Below are positions 37,119 through 45,353 of a stretch of DNA of 64,000 bases, piece after piece. The number at the start of each line of letters is the position of its first letter. The stretch's first letter is position 1. The stretch covers positions 1 to 64,000 of the forward strand of contig JAKVAX010000015.1 of assembly GCA_022447625.1 (NCBI GenBank). The letters run 5' to 3'. Source of the stretch: Flavobacteriales bacterium (lineage in GTDB: Bacteria; Bacteroidota; Bacteroidia; Flavobacteriales_D; Sanyastnellaceae). A program made the position numbers and the translations under genes. The notes below the pieces were generated by a model, which worked only from the letters and a program-made list of their open reading frames with translations, had not been told where the DNA came from and made no database searches.

Positions 37119-40100
37119 TTAAATATCGTAGCTAAATCCAAAGCTGAATGTTCGTCCCCATTGCATGCTCTGGAATACGTATTCCTCACCTTTGAACTCG
37201 TAAGTTGAACGGTATTCAGGGTTGAGTAGATTTCTTGCTTTAAAGCGGATCGAGAAACGATCTCCTAGTGACTTCGAAACTGAGAAGTCGAGGTTTGGAG
37301 TTGGCTGAGCGTAGATGTCAGGTGTTCCTCCAGTAGTTACCAAGACTAGCTTAGGACCTTGAACGTTGTAAGTCAACGCCATGTTCAATCCGATTGAGTC
37401 ATTGTCGTAAGTAAGGATACCGTTGATGATGTACGGGCTCTGACCGAACATCGGGCGCGTATCTTCGTGGTCGAGGTCAGTTGCGCGGATTACTTCTAGC
37501 TCTGCTTCGTCAATCGACGTTTCAGACTGAACGAGTGTCACGTTCGCTCCAACTCCGAATGGTGCGAAACGCTCACCAAGGAAGGCAAGTGACTTGCGTA
37601 CTTCGAACTCAGCTCCAAATAGAACTGCTTGGTCAACGTTCTTCCAAGTAATCTCTGTGTTTGCTGCAGTAGCAATGATTACCTGCTCGATTGGATCGTC
37701 GAACTGCTTGTAGAACAAGCTAACAGAGTATGACTCTCCTGGCATTGGGAAATGCTCCAAGCGAAGGGCGAAGTTGTTGATCAACGTACGTCCTAGCTCA
37801 GGGTTTCCTGTTTGCTGCTCCTGTACTTCGAAGTCGAAAACAGAGTAAGGCGCTTTTTCACGGAACATTGGACGAGCAACCGACTGGCTAGCAGAAATAC
37901 GAAGGTTCGTTACTGCTAGATCGTATTGACGAAGTAGGTAGGTCATGTTGAATGACGGAAGAATGTCTACCAAGTCAAGCTGCCCACGGAAGTTGAATTG
38001 TAGGCTGTCTTGAATCTGCTCTGCTTGTAGAATGCGTGATTCTAGAAGCATATCCGTTGTCTCTAGACGTGCACCAGCGTTAATACGTAGACGTGAAGTA
38101 ATGTTCCAGTCAACCATACCGTAAGCACCAAGTACATCCATGCTAGCATCGTAGCTGTTCTGGATGTCAGTGTCATCACGTAGGAAGAGGTATCCGTCTT
38201 GTCCTCCAGGAACTACTGTGTAGTTGTCCTGAGAGAAGTAGTCGTTAGGGTTCCCGTTGTAGTCAAGTCCTGTGCTGATGAAGCTGTAGCGCTGCTCAGT
38301 GTAATCACGCGTCTTGCTTACGTATGAACCTCCAAGACGAACACGGTTCTTCAATCCAGTTGCGTTGGTGAAAGGAATTTCCACGTTGAGTTTAAGATCA
38401 AGCGTATTATCAACCATTTCACGGTAGTAGCGTGTTGGAGAAGGGTAGAGGTTGTCAAGGATGTCGTAGTTCAAAGTTGTTCCCTCTTGTTGTTCTACTG
38501 TAAACCCTGGGTAGTATTCCTCTAGATTCTCTCCGTCGCCAAGAAGGGCAAGTGCATCTTCTGTAATGTCATTCCCTTCTGCATCGAAGTAGAAAGTTCC
38601 ACCTGGTACTTCATTATAGCTATTGATGAATACACGAAGGTCTGGTGTACGTTGTACTCCACGAGTGAAGCTTCCTAGCCAGTCGATTTTGATGTTCCCT
38701 TTGTCTTTTAGAACGTGTTCTCCTCGCAGCTGGTAGATATTCATTTGACGTTCTAGGTAACGCTGCGAACGCTGCTCTTGACCGAGACCAATCTCATCAC
38801 TAGGGTTGATACCATCTTGGTAGCGTGCTGTATTCACTCCACTAACGTTTGGCATGAAAGTCAAACCAATCTTGTTGTTGGGAGATAGTTTGTAGCTCAA
38901 GTTTAGAAGTGCCGAAATGTATGTTGATTGACGACCAAGATCATCTGATAGTAGACGCTCAGTATTTAGGTTGTTGACCTCATTCTCGTCACCTGTTAGG
39001 GTATATCTTCCTGTTTGACCTGCCTCATACCCGCGGTTCTGCTGCTTGTATTGGATACCGAATACATATCCTAGTGGTCTACCAAACAGCTTACCCTGGT
39101 TACCAAAGCTCAACGACTGAGTAATGTCGAGGAATGGAGCTTGTTTCTTAGGATCCCATGTGTTTTCAAACGCACGCCCCATATCAGAAAGCTCTTTGTT
39201 CTTCACCTCACGAACTTGAGGAAGGAGCGTGTTGTTCACGTAGCTCACAGACTCAATTTCCTCAATAGCGTTAACGATATCACCTATTGATGTTTGGTCA
39301 GCACCATTTCCAATGTCTTCTGATGACGTAATTCCAAGTGCAGTAAGGTCATTCTCGTATCCTGCTTCTACAAGTGCCTCGTAGTAATTCGAGAAATTCT
39401 GCTGTGGAATCTCACTAGCATCAGTAACGATAGAAGGAGCGTCACGGAACCCGTTGTCAAATCCGATCCAATCGGTATCAGATCCTGTGCTCGTCAGGAA
39501 ATCATCATTGAACGTGGAATTGGTGTTGTATCCGAAAGAACCAGAGTAACGGAATTGAAACTGATCCGGGAAGTCTTTCGTGATGACGTTGATGTAGGCA
39601 CCAGAGTAGTCAGCTGGAAGATCTGCTTGAAGTGTCTTTACCACCACCAAGTTGTCAATCAAGTTGGTAGGGAAGATATCCATCTGAACAGCGTTGCGCT
39701 TTGGATCCAGAGAAGGTACTTCTGCACCGTTCAGGGTTGTTTTCAAGTAACGATCAGAAAGACCACGAACGAAAACGTAATTACCTACTGTACTAACTCC
39801 CGTTACACGTTTCAATGCACCAGCGGCATCAGAGTCACCTGTTTTCTTGATTTGCTGAGAAGAGATGTAATCCATCATCGATGGGTTCTTCTTCTTGATA
39901 TTCTCCATGTAGGTGTCACGAGAACGGTCAGCTTTTGTCACGACTTCAGCTGCATCTTCGATAACGAATGTAGCTGGCATCAAAGTGAAGTTGACGATGG
40001 TCACTTCACCATCTGTTACAACGACATCACTCTTCTTTACCGTCTCGTAAGAGATGAAACTACAGCTCAAGGTGTAGGTTCCAGGATCAAGATCTTCGAG

Positions 40101-40274
40101 GGAAAAATTTCCATCTAGATCTGCCATTACACCTTTAGAAGTGCCCTCAATCACCACGTTGGCGAAGAGTACATCTCCGGAGACTCCGTCGGTAACCTTA
40201 CCGCGGATAGTTCCCTGTGCCAGAGCGCTTAAGGCTCCTAGTGCTAGGGTAAGTGTTAGAATTACATTTTTCAT
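37119..40274 (-). CDS. TonB-dependent receptor with carboxypeptidase-regulatory-like domain
   Basis: 1051 residues from the ATG at 40274, which starts a signal peptide (MKNVILTLTLALGALSALAQ). A CarboxypepD_reg-like domain (~22-105) is followed by a plug domain (~125-255, with D-A-A-G-A-L-K-R-V-T-G-V, V-F-V-R-G-L-S-D-R-Y, L-N-G-A-E-V-P-S). The remainder is a 22-strand-type barrel ending in the aromatic strand W-G-R-T-F-S-F-G-F-S-Y-D-I. It is not SusC: no SusD partner follows. It imports a substrate across the outer membrane with TonB energy; the Pho-box-like repeats upstream suggest a phosphorus compound (inference). Confidence 0.93.
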   Translation of the reverse strand: MKNVILTLTLALGALSALAQGTIRGKVTDGVSGDVLFANVVIEGTSKGVMADLDGNFSLEDLDPGTYTLSCSFISYETVKKSDVVVTDGEVTIVNFTLMPATFVIEDAAEVVTKADRSRDTYMENIKKKNPSMMDYISSQQIKKTGDSDAAGALKRVTGVSTVGNYVFVRGLSDRYLKTTLNGAEVPSLDPKRNAVQMDIFPTNLIDNLVVVKTLQADLPADYSGAYINVITKDFPDQFQFRYSGSFGYNTNSTFNDDFLTSTGSDTDWIGFDNGFRDAPSIVTDASEIPQQNFSNYYEALVEAGYENDLTALGITSSEDIGNGADQTSIGDIVNAIEEIESVSYVNNTLLPQVREVKNKELSDMGRAFENTWDPKKQAPFLDITQSLSFGNQGKLFGRPLGYVFGIQYKQQNRGYEAGQTGRYTLTGDENEVNNLNTERLLSDDLGRQSTYISALLNLSYKLSPNNKIGLTFMPNVSGVNTARYQDGINPSDEIGLGQEQRSQRYLERQMNIYQLRGEHVLKDKGNIKIDWLGSFTRGVQRTPDLRVFINSYNEVPGGTFYFDAEGNDITEDALALLGDGENLEEYYPGFTVEQQEGTTLNYDILDNLYPSPTRYYREMVDNTLDLKLNVEIPFTNATGLKNRVRLGGSYVSKTRDYTEQRYSFISTGLDYNGNPNDYFSQDNYTVVPGGQDGYLFLRDDTDIQNSYDASMDVLGAYGMVDWNITSRLRINAGARLETTDMLLESRILQAEQIQDSLQFNFRGQLDLVDILPSFNMTYLLRQYDLAVTNLRISASQSVARPMFREKAPYSVFDFEVQEQQTGNPELGRTLINNFALRLEHFPMPGESYSVSLFYKQFDDPIEQVIIATAANTEITWKNVDQAVLFGAEFEVRKSLAFLGERFAPFGVGANVTLVQSETSIDEAELEVIRATDLDHEDTRPMFGQSPYIINGILTYDNDSIGLNMALTYNVQGPKLVLVTTGGTPDIYAQPTPNLDFSVSKSLGDRFSIRFKARNLLNPEYRSTYEFKGEEYVFQSMQWGRTFSFGFSYDI

Positions 40275-40294
40275 TTGGACGAACATTCTGAGTG

Positions 40295-40302
40295 CAAAGG
40301 TC
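40295..40302 (-). promoter_or_regulatory. -7 box of the TonB receptor gene
   Basis: Minus strand GACCTTTG, one mismatch to TAnnTTTG, 20 bp before the start and exactly 10 bp after the last TAAC repeat. Confidence 0.45.
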
Positions 40303-40312
40303 AGGTGATATT

Positions 40313-40339
40313 GTTATGGGAATGTTACGGGAACGCTAT
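40313..40339 (-). promoter_or_regulatory. Pho-box-like 11-bp direct repeats before the TonB receptor
   Basis: On the minus strand ATAGC, GTAAC and ATAAC occur with 11-bp spacing (plus strand 40335, 40324, 40313). Direct repeats at one helical turn are the hallmark of PhoB-type binding sites; binding itself is inferred. Confidence 0.5.
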
Positions 40340-40348
40340 GGAAAATGT

Positions 40349-40380
40349 AAGAGGGCGTCCCATCGCTGGAACGCCCTCTT
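40349..40380 (-). terminator. Hairpin after the duplicated beta-helix protein gene
   Basis: AAGAGGGCGT / ACGCCCTCTT 10-bp stem with a 12-base loop between the two minus-strand genes; T-run is short on both strands. It suggests the TonB receptor has its own promoter. Confidence 0.6.
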
Positions 40381-40401
40381 TCTACTTGCTTGATTATGTT
40401 G

Positions 40402-43400
40402 TTAGCGTACGATTACGCGCGCTGTTTTCACCATTCCGTTCTGCTCGAACTGCACGAGGTAAAGTCCAGATCCGAATTGATCTAGGTTTACTTCGACTTG
40501 AGCTCCGGCAGGTAGGTTTTGCAATGGAAGTGCAGCAACAGTGCGTCCTGTCATGTCCATTACAGAAAGTGTTGCGATATCAACGTTGTTGTTGAAACGT
40601 ACATTGAAGATACCAGTGTTCGGGTTAGGGAATACTGACAGCGCTTCCGCGGTAGCGAATACTGTTTCTTCTTCAATAGAAGTTACACAACCTAGGAACA
40701 TACGCTCATCAAGGAATGACCAACCGTGTAGCCAAGTACATTCCTCAGATGGATCAAATGCACCTTTGTAAGCTGCAGCTGTGTACCAATCTCCTTCTAC
40801 AGGATCAGCATCAACGTTCCCTTCCGGCTTCACCATCAACATTTCTGAACCTTCTTCAATTTCATAGTTCAATTGTGGATCTGCCACTTCGTTACCATTC
40901 GAAGCGAATGATGCTTGGAAGGCAGCTGTGGAGGCATTCAGTGCTTCTGTCGAGTCTGATTCAGAAGCCCATCCAGATCCCATAGAAATCTTGAAGATAT
41001 CTTCCGCGGTAGCGTCAGCAGAAACAACATCATAGAAACAGCTATTCGCAATAACCAATTCACCGTCTTGGAATCGCTGGTAGCTATCCTGTCCTGAAGG
41101 AAGGTTTTCGATATCAACACCACGTCCCCAGTTGTAGAAGATAGAGTTGTGGTACTGACCTCCTGCGTTGTCACGGAATGTCAATGCACGCTTTCCAGCA
41201 TCCATACCACGCCCCATGTAAGTTGCATTGTAAATCATTGGAGTAGCGTAAGGAGCACCGTCTTCTGGGTTCGTACCACCATCGTGCTCACCACCTCGGT
41301 CACCTTCACCGTCAGTATCATCATGAACAGTGAACCAGAACTGTCCTTGTCCACGCCATCCTTCGTCGTAATCGAAAGAATCATCGCCACAGAAGGCAAC
41401 AGCAGCGTGTTTCACACGAGCAGTTCCCCCGAAGAATTCAATACCGTCATCTGCATTTGAAACAACTTCTACGTAATCGATGGTTGTTGCAGATCCAACA
41501 CCACCTAGCGTGATACCGTTGATTTCGTTACCAGCACCAATGTCTGATCCACCGTGACGCACAGAGATGTAACGAATAACTCCAGAGTTATCTTCATTGT
41601 CTGTACCACCGTAAAGTCCACGCTCTTCAGTTTCAGGAATACCTTCAATCTGTGTCTCTCCTGGCTCAGAGTTCAATTCTGCATTTCCAAGAACGATCAA
41701 ACCACCCCATTGACCACGCGTGTCGTAAGGAACTGAACCGTCTAGTGGATCTGCTTCGAAAGTGAAGATTACAGGGTTGTTTGGAGTACCTTCAGCGAAG
41801 ATCTTTCCACCACGAGCAACTACTAGCGCGGATGCATCAGCACCTGTTCCGGCCATACCTTTGATAACAGTTCCAGGTTCGATTGTCAAACACTGACCGT
41901 CATTCACGAATACGAAACCGTCAAGAATGTATGTGTTACATGCTTTCCATGTAGTAGTTCCTGTTCCAGAACCGTCATCTGATACTACGATTGTTTGATC
42001 GCAATCATCATTATCAGCGCTGCTCAAGAAACCGTATTGATCGAGCATAGTCCAGCCAAATAGCCAGTTCTCTTGATCTGGGTTAAATGCTCCTTTGAAA
42101 GAAACAGCATCGAACCAATCCAAAGTCGCAGGAGTACCACCACCAAAGTTAGTTACAGGTACTGGATTCAATCCTTCGGAGTTAGGGATCACTTCATATT
42201 CTAGCCCTAGGTCAGCCACCTGGTTGTTGTTTCCTTGGAATGATGCTACGAAAGCTTCAGTAGACGCATTCAGTGCATTTGTAGAATCTGATTCTGAAGC
42301 CCATCCTGATCCCATTGAAATCTTGAATAGGTCAGATGCAGTTGCATCTTGTCCAGAACAAAGGTCGCCATCCATAACAACGTCTTGGAATACGTTACCT
42401 GCAAAGGCTAAAGAACCATCAAGGAAACGCTCGTAGCTATCTTCTCCAGATGCTAGGTTCTCAATGTCAATTCCGCGACCCCAGTTTGCGAATACTGAGT
42501 TGTGGTATTGACCACCGGCATTATCACGCATAGTGATTGCACGTTTTCCAGCGTCGATTCCGCGACCAATGTACGTAGCGTTGTATAATACTGGAGTTCC
42601 GAAAGGCATACCGTCTTCAGGGTTGGTACCTCCGTCGTGTTCTCCACCACGGTCACCTTCACCACCTTCAACGTCGTGTACACAGAACCAGTACTGTCCG
42701 TATCCTCGCCATCCTTCATCGTAGTCGAAAGAGTCATCTCCACAGAAGGCAACAGATGCCCACTTGATGTTGGCTGTTCCTCCGAAGAATTCAATACCGT
42801 CATCCGCATTTGAAATAACTTCAACGTGCTCTATAACAGTACCAGAACCAACACCACCGAGTGTCAGTCCGTTAATCTCATTTCCAGCACCAATATCAGT
42901 ACCTCCGTGACGGATCGAAATGTATTGGATCACGCCAGAGTTGTCAGTATTGTTGCTTCCTCCGTAAAGTCCACGCTCTTCCGTCTCAGGAATACCTTCA
43001 ATTTGTGTTTCTCCAGGCTCAGAGTTTAATTCTGCCGCTCCAAGAACGATAACCCCACCCCATTGACCTCGTGTGTCGAATGGAATAGAACCATCAAGAG
43101 GATCTTCTTCGAATGTGAACACAATCGGAGCGTCTGCCGTTCCGTTTGCGAAGATTTGTCCACCGCGTGCTACAACCAACGCAGATGCATCTGCTCCAGT
43201 TCCAGCGATACCTTTAATTACTGTTCCCGCTTCAATAGTCAGAACTTGTCCGCTATTTACGAATACGAATCCGTCAAGGAAGTAAGTGTTGTCGTTGGTC
43301 CAGGTTGTTGTACCTGTACCAGAACCATCGTCTGTTACGATGATGTCAGCAGCGCTAATTGATCCTGCGAAGAGGATTGCTAGTAGCATCATGCTTGAGC

Positions 43401-43416
43401 GTAAAAGTGTAGTCAT
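40402..43416 (-). CDS. Secreted protein with tandemly duplicated beta-helix-like domain, T9SS type-A cargo
   Basis: 1004 residues. A signal peptide (1-22) is followed by two copies of one ~430-residue domain (about 24-450 and 468-885). Both begin V-[TS]-D-D-G-S-G-T-G-T-T-T-W and share LTIE(A/P)GTVIKG, GADASALVVARGG, DTRGQWGG, ETQIEGIPETEERGLYGG, DDGIEFFGGTA, FCGDDSFDYDEGWRG and GDRGGEHDGGTNPEDG. The pattern suggests a right-handed beta-helix with acidic, possibly Ca-binding loops. The last ~75 residues (LSVFPNPNTGIFNVRF … SGLYLVQF) are a T9SS sorting domain. It is paired with the TonB receptor, so probably an extracellular binding or hydrolytic partner; no catalytic motif recognised. Confidence 0.88.
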   Translation of the reverse strand: MTTLLRSSMMLLAILFAGSISAADIIVTDDGSGTGTTTWTNDNTYFLDGFVFVNSGQVLTIEAGTVIKGIAGTGADASALVVARGGQIFANGTADAPIVFTFEEDPLDGSIPFDTRGQWGGVIVLGAAELNSEPGETQIEGIPETEERGLYGGSNNTDNSGVIQYISIRHGGTDIGAGNEINGLTLGGVGSGTVIEHVEVISNADDGIEFFGGTANIKWASVAFCGDDSFDYDEGWRGYGQYWFCVHDVEGGEGDRGGEHDGGTNPEDGMPFGTPVLYNATYIGRGIDAGKRAITMRDNAGGQYHNSVFANWGRGIDIENLASGEDSYERFLDGSLAFAGNVFQDVVMDGDLCSGQDATASDLFKISMGSGWASESDSTNALNASTEAFVASFQGNNNQVADLGLEYEVIPNSEGLNPVPVTNFGGGTPATLDWFDAVSFKGAFNPDQENWLFGWTMLDQYGFLSSADNDDCDQTIVVSDDGSGTGTTTWKACNTYILDGFVFVNDGQCLTIEPGTVIKGMAGTGADASALVVARGGKIFAEGTPNNPVIFTFEADPLDGSVPYDTRGQWGGLIVLGNAELNSEPGETQIEGIPETEERGLYGGTDNEDNSGVIRYISVRHGGSDIGAGNEINGITLGGVGSATTIDYVEVVSNADDGIEFFGGTARVKHAAVAFCGDDSFDYDEGWRGQGQFWFTVHDDTDGEGDRGGEHDGGTNPEDGAPYATPMIYNATYMGRGMDAGKRALTFRDNAGGQYHNSIFYNWGRGVDIENLPSGQDSYQRFQDGELVIANSCFYDVVSADATAEDIFKISMGSGWASESDSTEALNASTAAFQASFASNGNEVADPQLNYEIEEGSEMLMVKPEGNVDADPVEGDWYTAAAYKGAFDPSEECTWLHGWSFLDERMFLGCVTSIEEETVFATAEALSVFPNPNTGIFNVRFNNNVDIATLSVMDMTGRTVAALPLQNLPAGAQVEVNLDQFGSGLYLVQFEQNGMVKTARVIVR
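40645..40657 (-). repeat. Dispersed 13-mer, copy 11 (CGCTACCGCGGAA)
   Basis: In frame as A-T-A-E, at the start of the sorting domain. Confidence 0.7.
41002..41014 (-). repeat. Dispersed 13-mer, copy 12 (CGCTACCGCGGAA)
   Basis: In frame as A-T-A-E in the second domain copy of the beta-helix-like protein. Confidence 0.7.
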
Positions 43417-43450
43417 TGCTAAATTGATTAATGGAAGAAACTTAACGCTG

Positions 43451-43458
43451 CAAAATTT
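43451..43458 (-). promoter_or_regulatory. -7 box of the beta-helix-like protein gene
   Basis: Minus strand AAATTTTG, one mismatch to TAnnTTTG, again exactly 10 bp after the last TAAC repeat. Confidence 0.45.
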
Positions 43459-43468
43459 GCTCAGGGAT

Positions 43469-43507
43469 GCTACTGTATGGTTACTTCAGTGTTACGTGTA
43501 AGTTAAC
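43469..43507 (-). promoter_or_regulatory. Pho-box-like 11-bp direct repeats, four units
   Basis: Plus-strand GCTAC (43469), GTTAC (43480), GTTAC (43491) and GTTAA (43502) are spaced by exactly 11 bp; on minus they read as TTAAC/GTAAC/GTAGC toward the gene. This is the clearest of the three sites. Confidence 0.55.
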
Positions 43508-43694
43508 TTCGAAACCAGACCGTAATATTGCCGGTATTTGATGGTGAAGTGTTGATAATCAGAAGGTAGTGGGGGCAATGCATCACGACTTAGTCACTGC
43601 GATTTTCATGAACAATCCCTTCGAGTCTCTGCAAACTCCTAGTTCGTACCGCATTGCCGTTGGAATTCGGAAATAGTCATGAGGCCACTTCATG

Positions 43695-43721
43695 TTAGGC
43701 TTTTGTTAACACGACCCTAAC
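43695..43721 (+). promoter_or_regulatory. Pho-box-like 11-bp direct repeats before the IMPase-like gene
   Basis: TTAGG (43695), TTAAC (43706) and CTAAC (43717) at 11-bp spacing, same orientation relative to the gene as the other two sites. A TTCTTTTG at 43738-43745 is a weak -7 candidate, but the spacing differs. Confidence 0.4.
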
Positions 43722-43757
43722 AATCTCACAAGATGGATTCTTTTGCTTTGCTCATCT

Positions 43758-44549
43758 ATGAACCAAGGTTTCATCAAGAGAATTTCACGCAAAGCCGTGA
43801 TCACGGCTGGTAAATATATGATTGATCGCTTTCAACGAGATCCGTTGAACACAGGGGGAATGAAGGAAGTGTCAACTCAGATTTCCCTCTCAAGTAGAGA
43901 TCACATGATTACGGTGATCGATGAGTACCTTCAAATCCAAGAGACTTCAGGGAATGACCACTTCACCCGATTGAAAGTATCCTCAGGAGAACTTCATTTG
44001 GTTCACCTCGACGGTAGAGAGTGTTTCATATACGGTCAACCAAACTTCAGTTTGGCTATATCCTTCGTTGTAGAAGGAATTACTAAGATGTCTGGCGTTT
44101 TTAATCCTTACTACAAAGAGCTCTTCTTTGCCGAGGATTTGACACAAGTGAAGAGGAACAATATTGTTACTCAGGTCAATGACGTATACTCAATTGAAGA
44201 GAGCTTTTTAGGTTTTAGCTACCGCGGAGAATACGACTCCAATGGGATGAAGCGGTTGAATACGCTATTCAATATCATGCGTCAACCGGTTCGTACAATG
44301 ATCCCTGGAAGTGATCTTTATGGTCTCACTTTGGTAGCAAATGGTAATTTGGGCGGAATGATTTTAGCCACCCCGAATCTTGATCTGATTGGACCAGGTA
44401 TATTCTTGGTAGAGGCAGGAGGGGGGAAGGTGACCGATCTTCAAGGTGCTCCTGTTTCTCGAAATTCTGAGTTCATTGTGGCCACCAATCGCAAGCTTCA
44501 CTCAGCACTTATCAACCAAGAAGCATTCATCAATTTGAGTGATCAATAG
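43758..44549 (+). CDS. Inositol-monophosphatase-like protein with altered metal site
   Basis: 263 residues from the ATG at 43758 (an ATG at 43743 is also in frame). The C-terminal half follows the IMPase fold: G-Q-P-N-F-S-L-A-I-S-F-V-V-E-G … G-V-F-N-P-Y-Y-K-E-L-F-F-A-E, then G-S-D-L-Y-G-L-T-L-V-A-N-G and L-V-E-A-G-G-G-K-V-T-D-L-Q-G. But the DPLDGT metal motif is reduced to H-L-D-G-R-E, and the W-D of the third motif is L-D. It may be a non-catalytic or altered-specificity member, e.g. in the CysQ/SuhB/histidinol-phosphatase branch. It ends 6 bp before the convergent LpxH-like gene. Confidence 0.7.
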   Translation: MNQGFIKRISRKAVITAGKYMIDRFQRDPLNTGGMKEVSTQISLSSRDHMITVIDEYLQIQETSGNDHFTRLKVSSGELHLVHLDGRECFIYGQPNFSLAISFVVEGITKMSGVFNPYYKELFFAEDLTQVKRNNIVTQVNDVYSIEESFLGFSYRGEYDSNGMKRLNTLFNIMRQPVRTMIPGSDLYGLTLVANGNLGGMILATPNLDLIGPGIFLVEAGGGKVTDLQGAPVSRNSEFIVATNRKLHSALINQEAFINLSDQ

Positions 44550-44555
44550 CTCTTG

Positions 44556-45353
44556 CTATGCAGGAACTCGCTTCAATAGCGACGACCAACGATCAATAAT
44601 CTCTTGCTCGGCAAACTCTTCCGACTCGTAAGCATAGAGGTTCCATTCCCCATTGACGAATTCTAGCGCGCTGAGGTTTTCTATCCAATCTCCTGAGTTC
44701 ATGTAGTTGACCGTTTTCCCATCGAGTTCAATGGTTCGGCGTTGCGGTTGATGAATGTGACCACAAACAACGTAGTCGAAATCATTTTCAATGGCAATCT
44801 CAGCCGCAGTAGTCTCAAAATCGCTGATGTATTTGACCGCTTTCTTCACACTGTTCTTAATACGTTTAGAAAACGACATTCTCGGACGACCGAATAGCTG
44901 AAGCACTGCGTTGACTATGTTGTTTGTCGCAATCAAGAGGTCATAACCCCAACCACCCAGTTTAGCCAGCCACTTTGCATACTGCATGGAAGCGTCGAAA
45001 ATATCTCCATGAAAGAACCAGTATTTCTTGCCTTCGATACGTAATTCAAGTTGATTCACCAGGTGGAGATTCCCAATCGAAAATTCGGCATATCTGCGTA
45101 ATGCCTCATCGTGGTTTCCTGTGATGTAATAGACTGGAACTTTTTCTGAAAATCGGATGATCTGCTTCACGATCCGCATATGGGTCTCTGGGAAATAGCG
45201 CTTCTTGAAATTCCACATGTCGAAGATGTCTCCGTTGAGGATCACCATTTCAGGTTCAACAGAACTGAGATAGCGATTGAGCTCACGAGCTTTGCATCCG
45301 AATGTTCCAAGGTGTAGGTCACTCAAGACCAAGATGTCCACGTTACGCTTCAT
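44556..45353 (-). CDS. UDP-2,3-diacylglucosamine diphosphatase-like metallophosphoesterase
   Basis: 265 residues, cytoplasmic. The calcineurin-type metal motifs are complete: D-L-H-L-G near residue 12, G-D-I-F-D-M-W, G-N-H-D-E-A-L, F-H-G-D-I-F-D and G-H-I-H-Q-P. This motif set and length fit the LpxH-like family, which hydrolyses UDP-2,3-diacylglucosamine to lipid X in lipid A synthesis. Assignment to LpxH proper rather than a paralogue is not certain because no other lpx gene is near. Confidence 0.87.
   Translation of the reverse strand: MKRNVDILVLSDLHLGTFGCKARELNRYLSSVEPEMVILNGDIFDMWNFKKRYFPETHMRIVKQIIRFSEKVPVYYITGNHDEALRRYAEFSIGNLHLVNQLELRIEGKKYWFFHGDIFDASMQYAKWLAKLGGWGYDLLIATNNIVNAVLQLFGRPRMSFSKRIKNSVKKAVKYISDFETTAAEIAIENDFDYVVCGHIHQPQRRTIELDGKTVNYMNSGDWIENLSALEFVNGEWNLYAYESEEFAEQEIIDRWSSLLKRVPA

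Follow-up and report, generated by a model that had tools for sequence, protein, structure and literature searches.

Escherichia coli PhoB binds Pho boxes made of 11-nt tandem direct repeats with 10 bp between them and the core promoter box downstream (PMC1906773, PMC4415409), i.e., the -10 element (PMC1906773), and the box of the cyanobacterial regulator SphR, CTTAACCT, consists of three tandem repeats whose 11-bp step can be read from the printed sites (PMC1906773). The PhoB regulons of Bacteroidota are known from expression and a gel shift; in Bacteroides fragilis, PhoB binds the promoter of pst, and the genes under its control include pst, polyphosphate kinase and a permease for phosphate (PMC3547664). 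A study that covers a flavobacterium also computed Pho boxes for the plcP clusters of marine heterotrophs, at genes different from those described here (PMC4796936). No Pho box sequence of Bacteroidota was found in the literature searched, in which subscription journals were thinly covered. We analysed a 64,000-nt stretch (hereafter the window) of a Flavobacteriales bacterium, taken from contig 7 of a 76-contig, 3.9-Mb draft genome (G000), in which three promoters carry tandem repeats. These repeats are highly likely to be the Pho boxes of a Bacteroidota PhoB, with a Pho-controlled scavenging pair formed by a secreted beta-helix protein and a TonB-dependent receptor, and phosphate exhaustion very probably switches on the three genes behind them.

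The putative site consists of tandem TTAAC-like units in 11-bp steps that end 10 bp upstream of a sigma-A -7 box. TAAC-like repeats at exact 11-bp steps had been claimed in the original prediction for the promoters of the TonB receptor, of the beta-helix protein exported by the type IX secretion system (T9SS) and of an inositol-monophosphatase-like (IMPase-like) protein, and all three were confirmed. The predicted Pho-box promoter of the receptor (40295..40349, minus strand) has TAGC at 40338, TAAC at 40327 and 40316 and a poor fourth unit at 40349, with the -7 box GACCTTTG at 40302-40295 on the same strand, 10 bp past the last repeat; it serves a gene for 1055 amino acids (37119..40286, minus), whose start may be the second ATG at 40274. 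That of the beta-helix gene (43451..43505, minus) has TAAC at 43505, 43494 and 43483 and TAGC at 43472, followed after 10 bp by AAATTTTG (43458-43451, minus), and the gene (40402..43416, minus) encodes a secreted protein of 1004 amino acids with a T9SS sorting domain. In the divergent direction, the predicted promoter of the IMPase-like gene (43696..43750, plus) has TAGG at 43696, TAAC at 43707 and 43718 and a degenerate CAAG at 43729, with TTGCTTTG at 43743-43750 (plus), 10 bp past CAAG and 7 bp from the ATG. The 10-bp gap had been claimed for the first two promoters and holds in both, and the third also obeys it if CAAG is counted as a fourth unit. Transcription would start at about 40290, 43446 and 43755, respectively; the last position leaves 3 nt to the ATG, so the IMPase-like mRNA would be nearly leaderless.

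The sigma-A box of Flavobacterium, TAnnTTTG, occupies -12 to -5 (PMC9723704), and thus the last repeat ends 10 bp before the box, as in the E. coli Pho boxes. The E. coli unit is CTGTCAT, whereas here it is (T/G)TAAC, and the core here is the Bacteroidota sigma-A element at -7. The SphR box shares the TTAAC core and at least three tandem units; it comes from another phylum, and the likeness covers the repeats, not the core promoter. Within the window, three TAAC triplets spaced by step 11 and carrying no more than one mismatch in total were found (three registers of two sites); in 100 first-order Markov sequences, their number averaged 0.15 and never exceeded 2. With up to two mismatches there were 10 triplets versus a Markov mean of 3.37, a count reached by two of the 100 sequences, and step 11 was the sole outlier among steps 7-15. 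Two repeats plus the box are weak alone in the window, with 2 occurrences at up to two mismatches (Markov mean 0.45, maximum 3) and 7 at up to three (mean 5.25). The significance rests on the repeats, the genome-wide ranking and the conservation, and not on two repeats plus box in the window.

One common site stands before a phoB-like gene, before the pst operons of relatives and before the beta-helix/receptor pair in many Bacteroidota. When the genome was scanned with the short pattern TAAC-N7-TAAC-N10-TAnnTTTG, allowing up to three mismatches, the only perfect match was in the promoter of the PhoB-like regulator gene (C75:109241), 23 bp upstream of its likely ATG (2 bp if the longest reading frame is taken), and the only match with one mismatch was the receptor promoter of the window. 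The phoB-like promoter had been met among loose matches before the pattern was written, so its discovery was not blind, while its perfect fit to the earlier-described box and spacing was. A longer pattern matched with no mismatch before the receptor, one before the beta-helix gene, two before the phoB-like gene and three before the IMPase-like gene.

A matrix was built from the sites of 12 promoters of relatives (seven of phoB-like genes and five of receptors), none of them from G000 or its near twin G020. On both strands of 284 kb of the genome, its top scores were the receptor site (25.8), the phoB-like site (22.9) and a stray site (18.3), followed by the IMPase-like (15.7) and beta-helix gene sites (15.3) and then a drop to 9.2. 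The stretches from outside the window were nearly all chosen for loose matches, which makes the background harsh, if anything. The receptor and phoB-like genes are orthologues of training genes; the IMPase-like and beta-helix gene sites had no part in the training. Within 250 bp upstream of the window's reading frames of at least 120 codons, only the three promoters exceed 6.7. As a control on known phosphate genes, the order was searched for PstC, which passed its cut-off in 10 of 299 genomes, and in six of these ten pst operons the best matrix site of the 3.7-3.9-kb locus, both strands considered, lies directly before pstS (pstC in one) with a score of 11.0-23.3. The search for matrix matches before pstS or phoBR thus came out positive, with the phoB-like promoter as the best genome-wide, and the earlier proposal that the repeats are sites of the PhoB family is supported by this promoter, exact in nine genomes of the family, together with the six pst operons. 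Matches to PF12849 in the window's family were tried as another pst control and set aside: among 30 loci, that of G186 reached 13.2 in a simple score and the others at most 10.4, and we presume that several of the latter represent a lipoprotein outside the pst operon.

Conservation was followed with the exact short pattern in 399 genomes of the order, 114 of which belong to the window's family (sums made by hand). Within the family, 11 exact matches occur in 10 genomes, versus 7 for the reversed control, and every one of them precedes either the phoB-like gene (nine, the window's own genome included) or the orthologous receptor (two, in G062 and G098). They span seven genera, with G000/G020 and G009/G197 as close pairs. 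In eight relatives, 15 of the 16 matches to the longer pattern with up to two mismatches precede phoB-like (7), receptor (6) or beta-helix (2) genes, and the remaining one sits inside a reading frame. The receptor carries its own site in several genomes of the family; counted as kept at a score of 14 or more, it is present in eight of 18 orthologues with at least 44% identity (G020, G039, G098, G009, G197, G062, G074 and G089), and in the promoters that have it the repeats and the box are constant and the bases between them variable. Before the beta-helix gene, the site is present but weaker, with 2-3 mismatches, in G039, G009, G074 and G062.

Candidate counterparts of the pair come from the phosphate-starvation response of other bacteria. 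The FI, FII and FIII lipoproteins of Flavobacterium johnsoniae are surface proteins (FII: IPR011050) near TonB-dependent receptors (PUSIII, PUSIV); they and the neighbouring receptors are among the most induced on phosphate depletion, a condition for which 95 induced transcripts are given, and FII lies in the phoBR cluster (PMC8115612). In Caulobacter, the surface protein ElpS (CC_0170) is produced under phosphate starvation, is associated with secreted phosphatase activity and adjoins the TonB receptor CC_0171, the gene of which is reported to be constitutive (PMC2996285). The proposal of a receptor/secreted-protein pair for phosphorus uptake gains support from its likeness to these pairs (PMC2996285, PMC8115612), which for FI-FIII is a likeness by description and for ElpS by arrangement, not by sequence alignment. 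FI-FIII are lipoproteins and ElpS is a lipoprotein released with the help of the type II secretion system (T2SS), whereas the window protein is a T9SS cargo with a duplicated unit. Its sorting domain, PF18962, scores 43.8 bits (cut-off 27), and its two units are 72% identical; relatives have one unit (eight aligned, 549-581 amino acids), two in G027 (1006 amino acids) or three in G039. The best NCBIfam model of the receptor is TIGR01782, with 235.1 bits under a cut-off of 310.

The pair was then surveyed across the phylum in the best 80 of at least 576 confirmed beta-helix loci, from named genomes, all Bacteroidota, with the lipoprotein form as the first query. A lipobox is present in 68 of the 79 matched beta-helix proteins and, by a simple motif, a T9SS tail in none of the 79. 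Of the 78 loci in which another gene follows, 77 have a TonB receptor there, on the same strand, and a gene for phosphate uptake or regulation flanks 27 of the 80 loci, 22 of these with a phoB-like gene. Scores above 12 were reached by 31 of 79 beta-helix promoters versus nine of 771 other mechanical reading frames (Fisher p 3e-27), at a threshold chosen with an earlier result in view, and by 0 of 77 following receptors, as expected if the pair is one operon. After a 1-bp shift of the box alone, 2-3 of the 79 promoters still exceed 12; the number is 0-2 when the last repeat moves with the box and 11-12 when everything after the first repeat moves. In G186, a genome of the window's family, the gene order is beta-helix, receptor, pstS, pstC, pstA, pstB and phoU, with the site before pstS. 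Homologous pairs lie beside T2SS genes in Sphingomonas and Indioceanicola (Alphaproteobacteria), which is the elpS/cc0171 arrangement, and these homologues in the elpS-type T2SS locus are 34-36% identical over about 270 residues. On plasmid pBGP9 of Alteromonas macleodii (L364; three of 20 listed plasmid matches were inspected), phoB, phoR, a PstS-like gene, a three-unit beta-helix gene and a TonB receptor occur together, and the module may therefore move between strains. Taken as a whole, the window pair is probably a T9SS-exported form of the ElpS-type module.

Several results weigh against these conclusions. The reversed short pattern outnumbers the real one in the genome (584 versus 254), as does the reversed longer pattern both in the genome (15 versus 8) and, at up to three mismatches, in eight relatives (119 versus 51), and across the order the exact short pattern has 43 matches in 41 of the 399 genomes versus 63 for the reversed control; this control is known by counts alone. 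TTAAC triplets with three mismatches are useless as a stand-alone marker: such 11-bp repeats are common in the genome, which would suit the view that the repeats arose in the promoters by chance, and they are rarer than their reversed control (86 versus 180). The stray site at C14:30344 (2 mismatches, matrix score 18.3) has no gene rightly placed and was taken as chance. Outside the family, where 29 of 32 exact matches were inspected (G179:C23, G021 and G010 being left out), only three of the 29 precede phosphate genes (polyphosphate kinase twice, a PHO4/PiT transporter once), eight lie inside reading frames, two have no gene in reach and the rest were not matched to products. The full site is missing from 10 of the 18 receptor orthologues, those under about 60% identity being mostly without it, and four of the ten pst loci show none, of which three lack it and one has the pstS start at the locus edge. 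Among the 80 loci only three of 22 phoB-like promoters exceed 12, and the beta-helix gene of G186 is without a strong site. Since the reversed control mostly outnumbers the real pattern, the case is carried by ranking, gene context and spacing, and not by number. The ranking, the phylogenetic conservation and the 1-bp shift control, together with the relatives and the phylum survey, speak against chance for the receptor and the pair, and chance repeats as the whole explanation are hardly credible.

The regulator itself also calls for caution. Its best models are those of PhoB, with TIGR02154 at 227.8 bits (cut-off 296.2) and the Bacteroidota PhoB NF053854 at 216.1 (cut-off 270), so it stays below the PhoB cut-offs, as do the regulators of seven of eight relatives, the eighth having no match under 1e-60; for the kinase encoded next, the best models are PnpS and PhoR, and here too the scores fall short of the cut-offs. 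OmpR-family regulators share binding to tandem repeats, and the sites could belong to another OmpR/PhoB-family regulator, e.g., of the RprY type, that responds to another stress and merely cross-controls the phoB-like regulator, the more so as two RprY-type systems of the genome also have TTAAC clusters nearby. We consider this improbable: no site in the RprY stretches L043 and L045 scores above 8 with the matrix, and nine genomes of the family have the site, -7 box spacing included, ahead of the phoB-like gene, as it also is ahead of pst operons.

With the repeats read as Pho boxes, phosphorylated PhoB would bind them head to tail in place of the -33 element, and tandem PhoB dimers would activate from the position of this missing upstream element by recruiting RNA polymerase, as E. 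coli PhoB does. Phosphate starvation would bring to the surface a T9SS-exported beta-helix protein that captures or processes a phosphorus-containing molecule, the product of which the TonB receptor would import. The predicted structure of its first unit is a parallel beta-helix (mean pLDDT 81), best aligned with a phage protein, tailspikes, alginate epimerases/lyases and NosD at Z 18-23 (best 50 of 448); the phage protein 7chu has Z 22.7, the alginate epimerase/lyase 8jaz Z 21.7 (280 aligned, 3.8 A) and NosD Z 21.6. Such matches of a predicted model show the fold, not the function; Foldseek against the PDB gave no match at E<=0.001, and a profile search of PDB sequences with the protein none at 0.01. 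The alignment with polysaccharide-active proteins such as 8jaz, besides the phage protein and NosD, would also fit a pair that imports a non-phosphorus compound, such as a polysaccharide or a metal complex, and whose tie to phosphate limitation is only secondary; glycans and siderophores are also among the substrates taken up by TonB receptors of this type. This alternative, which is compatible with the Pho-box reading, appears rather unlikely, as the pair is repeatedly linked to pst, phoB, PiT and NptA genes and the related lipoproteins and receptors of F. johnsoniae respond to depletion of phosphate, not of nitrogen or iron (PMC8115612).

The IMPase-like gene (43758..44549, plus) had been placed in the same Pho block, which holds for its site and is less clear for its product. 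Active inositol monophosphatases have a DPxDGT metal-binding motif and a WD motif; inspected by eye, the former is replaced by VHLDG(R/Q) in both species and the latter is changed, and the protein, an inositol-monophosphatase fold with degenerate motifs, may therefore be a non-catalytic relative. Among 19 loci of relatives, its orthologue adjoins the pair only in the window's genus (G020, 95%; G039, 52%), and two other loci have IMPase-family members of 23-24% identity elsewhere in the locus. The G039 gene, at 52% identity, keeps the same site layout and the same 7 bp to the ATG. The suggested link to the neighbouring OlsF-like gene gained no support, its site score being 6.7 in G000 and negative in G020, G039 and G009, and UbiA was likewise rejected as a regulon member with negative scores in the latter three. 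A metallophosphoesterase (44556-45353), LpxH-like by model although under cut-off, neighbours the pair in five relatives and recalls, in our estimation, the PlcP phospholipases of lipid remodelling under phosphate starvation; as a member it was also rejected, since its promoter has no conserved site (at most 5.7 in five relatives).

A profile search found no PstS or PstC over family cut-offs in the window's genome, and PhoU passed its cut-off nowhere but in the tail of a Na/Pi symporter (NptA). Outer-membrane scavenging may therefore matter more here. The NptA promoter shows TAAC units at positions 0, 11 and 33 bp, with TCACTTTG following after 10 bp; its matrix score of 5.4 despite the 11-bp pairs tells against a full site, and we regard it as a possible one. 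Close to the symporter-PhoU gene, a secreted protein of 1318 residues with a partial ExeM/NucH nuclease match is encoded (L038:7778-14096, G000:C67), and 11-bp TTAAC pairs lie upstream of both NptA and this nuclease gene; in the latter the pair is far upstream, and the gene was not counted as a site carrier.

Two further observations concern genes outside the window. Lone CarbopepD_reg_2 secreted proteins of about 115-130 residues, which correspond to the N-terminal domain of the receptor, have strong predicted Pho boxes in other Bacteroidota (L272:8513-8887, L258:12992-13336, L315:14948-15301, L284:14395-14781, L268:5079-5435, L256:8354-8704 and L267:4153-4509; assigned by Pfam for two and by blastp for the listed proteins). 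Four of ten in this class score above 12, and four of the nine high-scoring reading frames classed as other in the phylum survey (L268, L256, L267 and L287) belong to it. In G039, a site with three mismatches precedes what is likely an organic-phosphate operon in the window's genus (L202:4964-9736), which comprises a small gene and the genes of a TonB receptor and of a type I phosphodiesterase with a T9SS tail.

On a broader scale, we tentatively hypothesize that a phosphate-starvation module of beta-helix protein and TonB receptor is common to Bacteroidota and Proteobacteria, placed under the control of the local PhoB, exported in a host-specific way and used to capture a phosphorylated polymer, and that the box geometry predates the split of the phyla. 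If true, the export route varies with the host, i.e., as a lipoprotein, linked to T2SS, or through T9SS with unit duplication as here, and the E. coli 11-bp/10-bp geometry kept despite a different core promoter would mean that the sigma recruitment by PhoB predates that split as well. For Bacteroidota, which are major degraders in the sea, soil and gut, the finding would offer a concrete Pho box to search with and would allow the phosphate response of uncultured Bacteroidota to be predicted. It flags an unexplained pair of surface protein and receptor as a probable phosphorus scavenger and suggests that the promoter geometry of PhoB is conserved across phyla with different core promoters.

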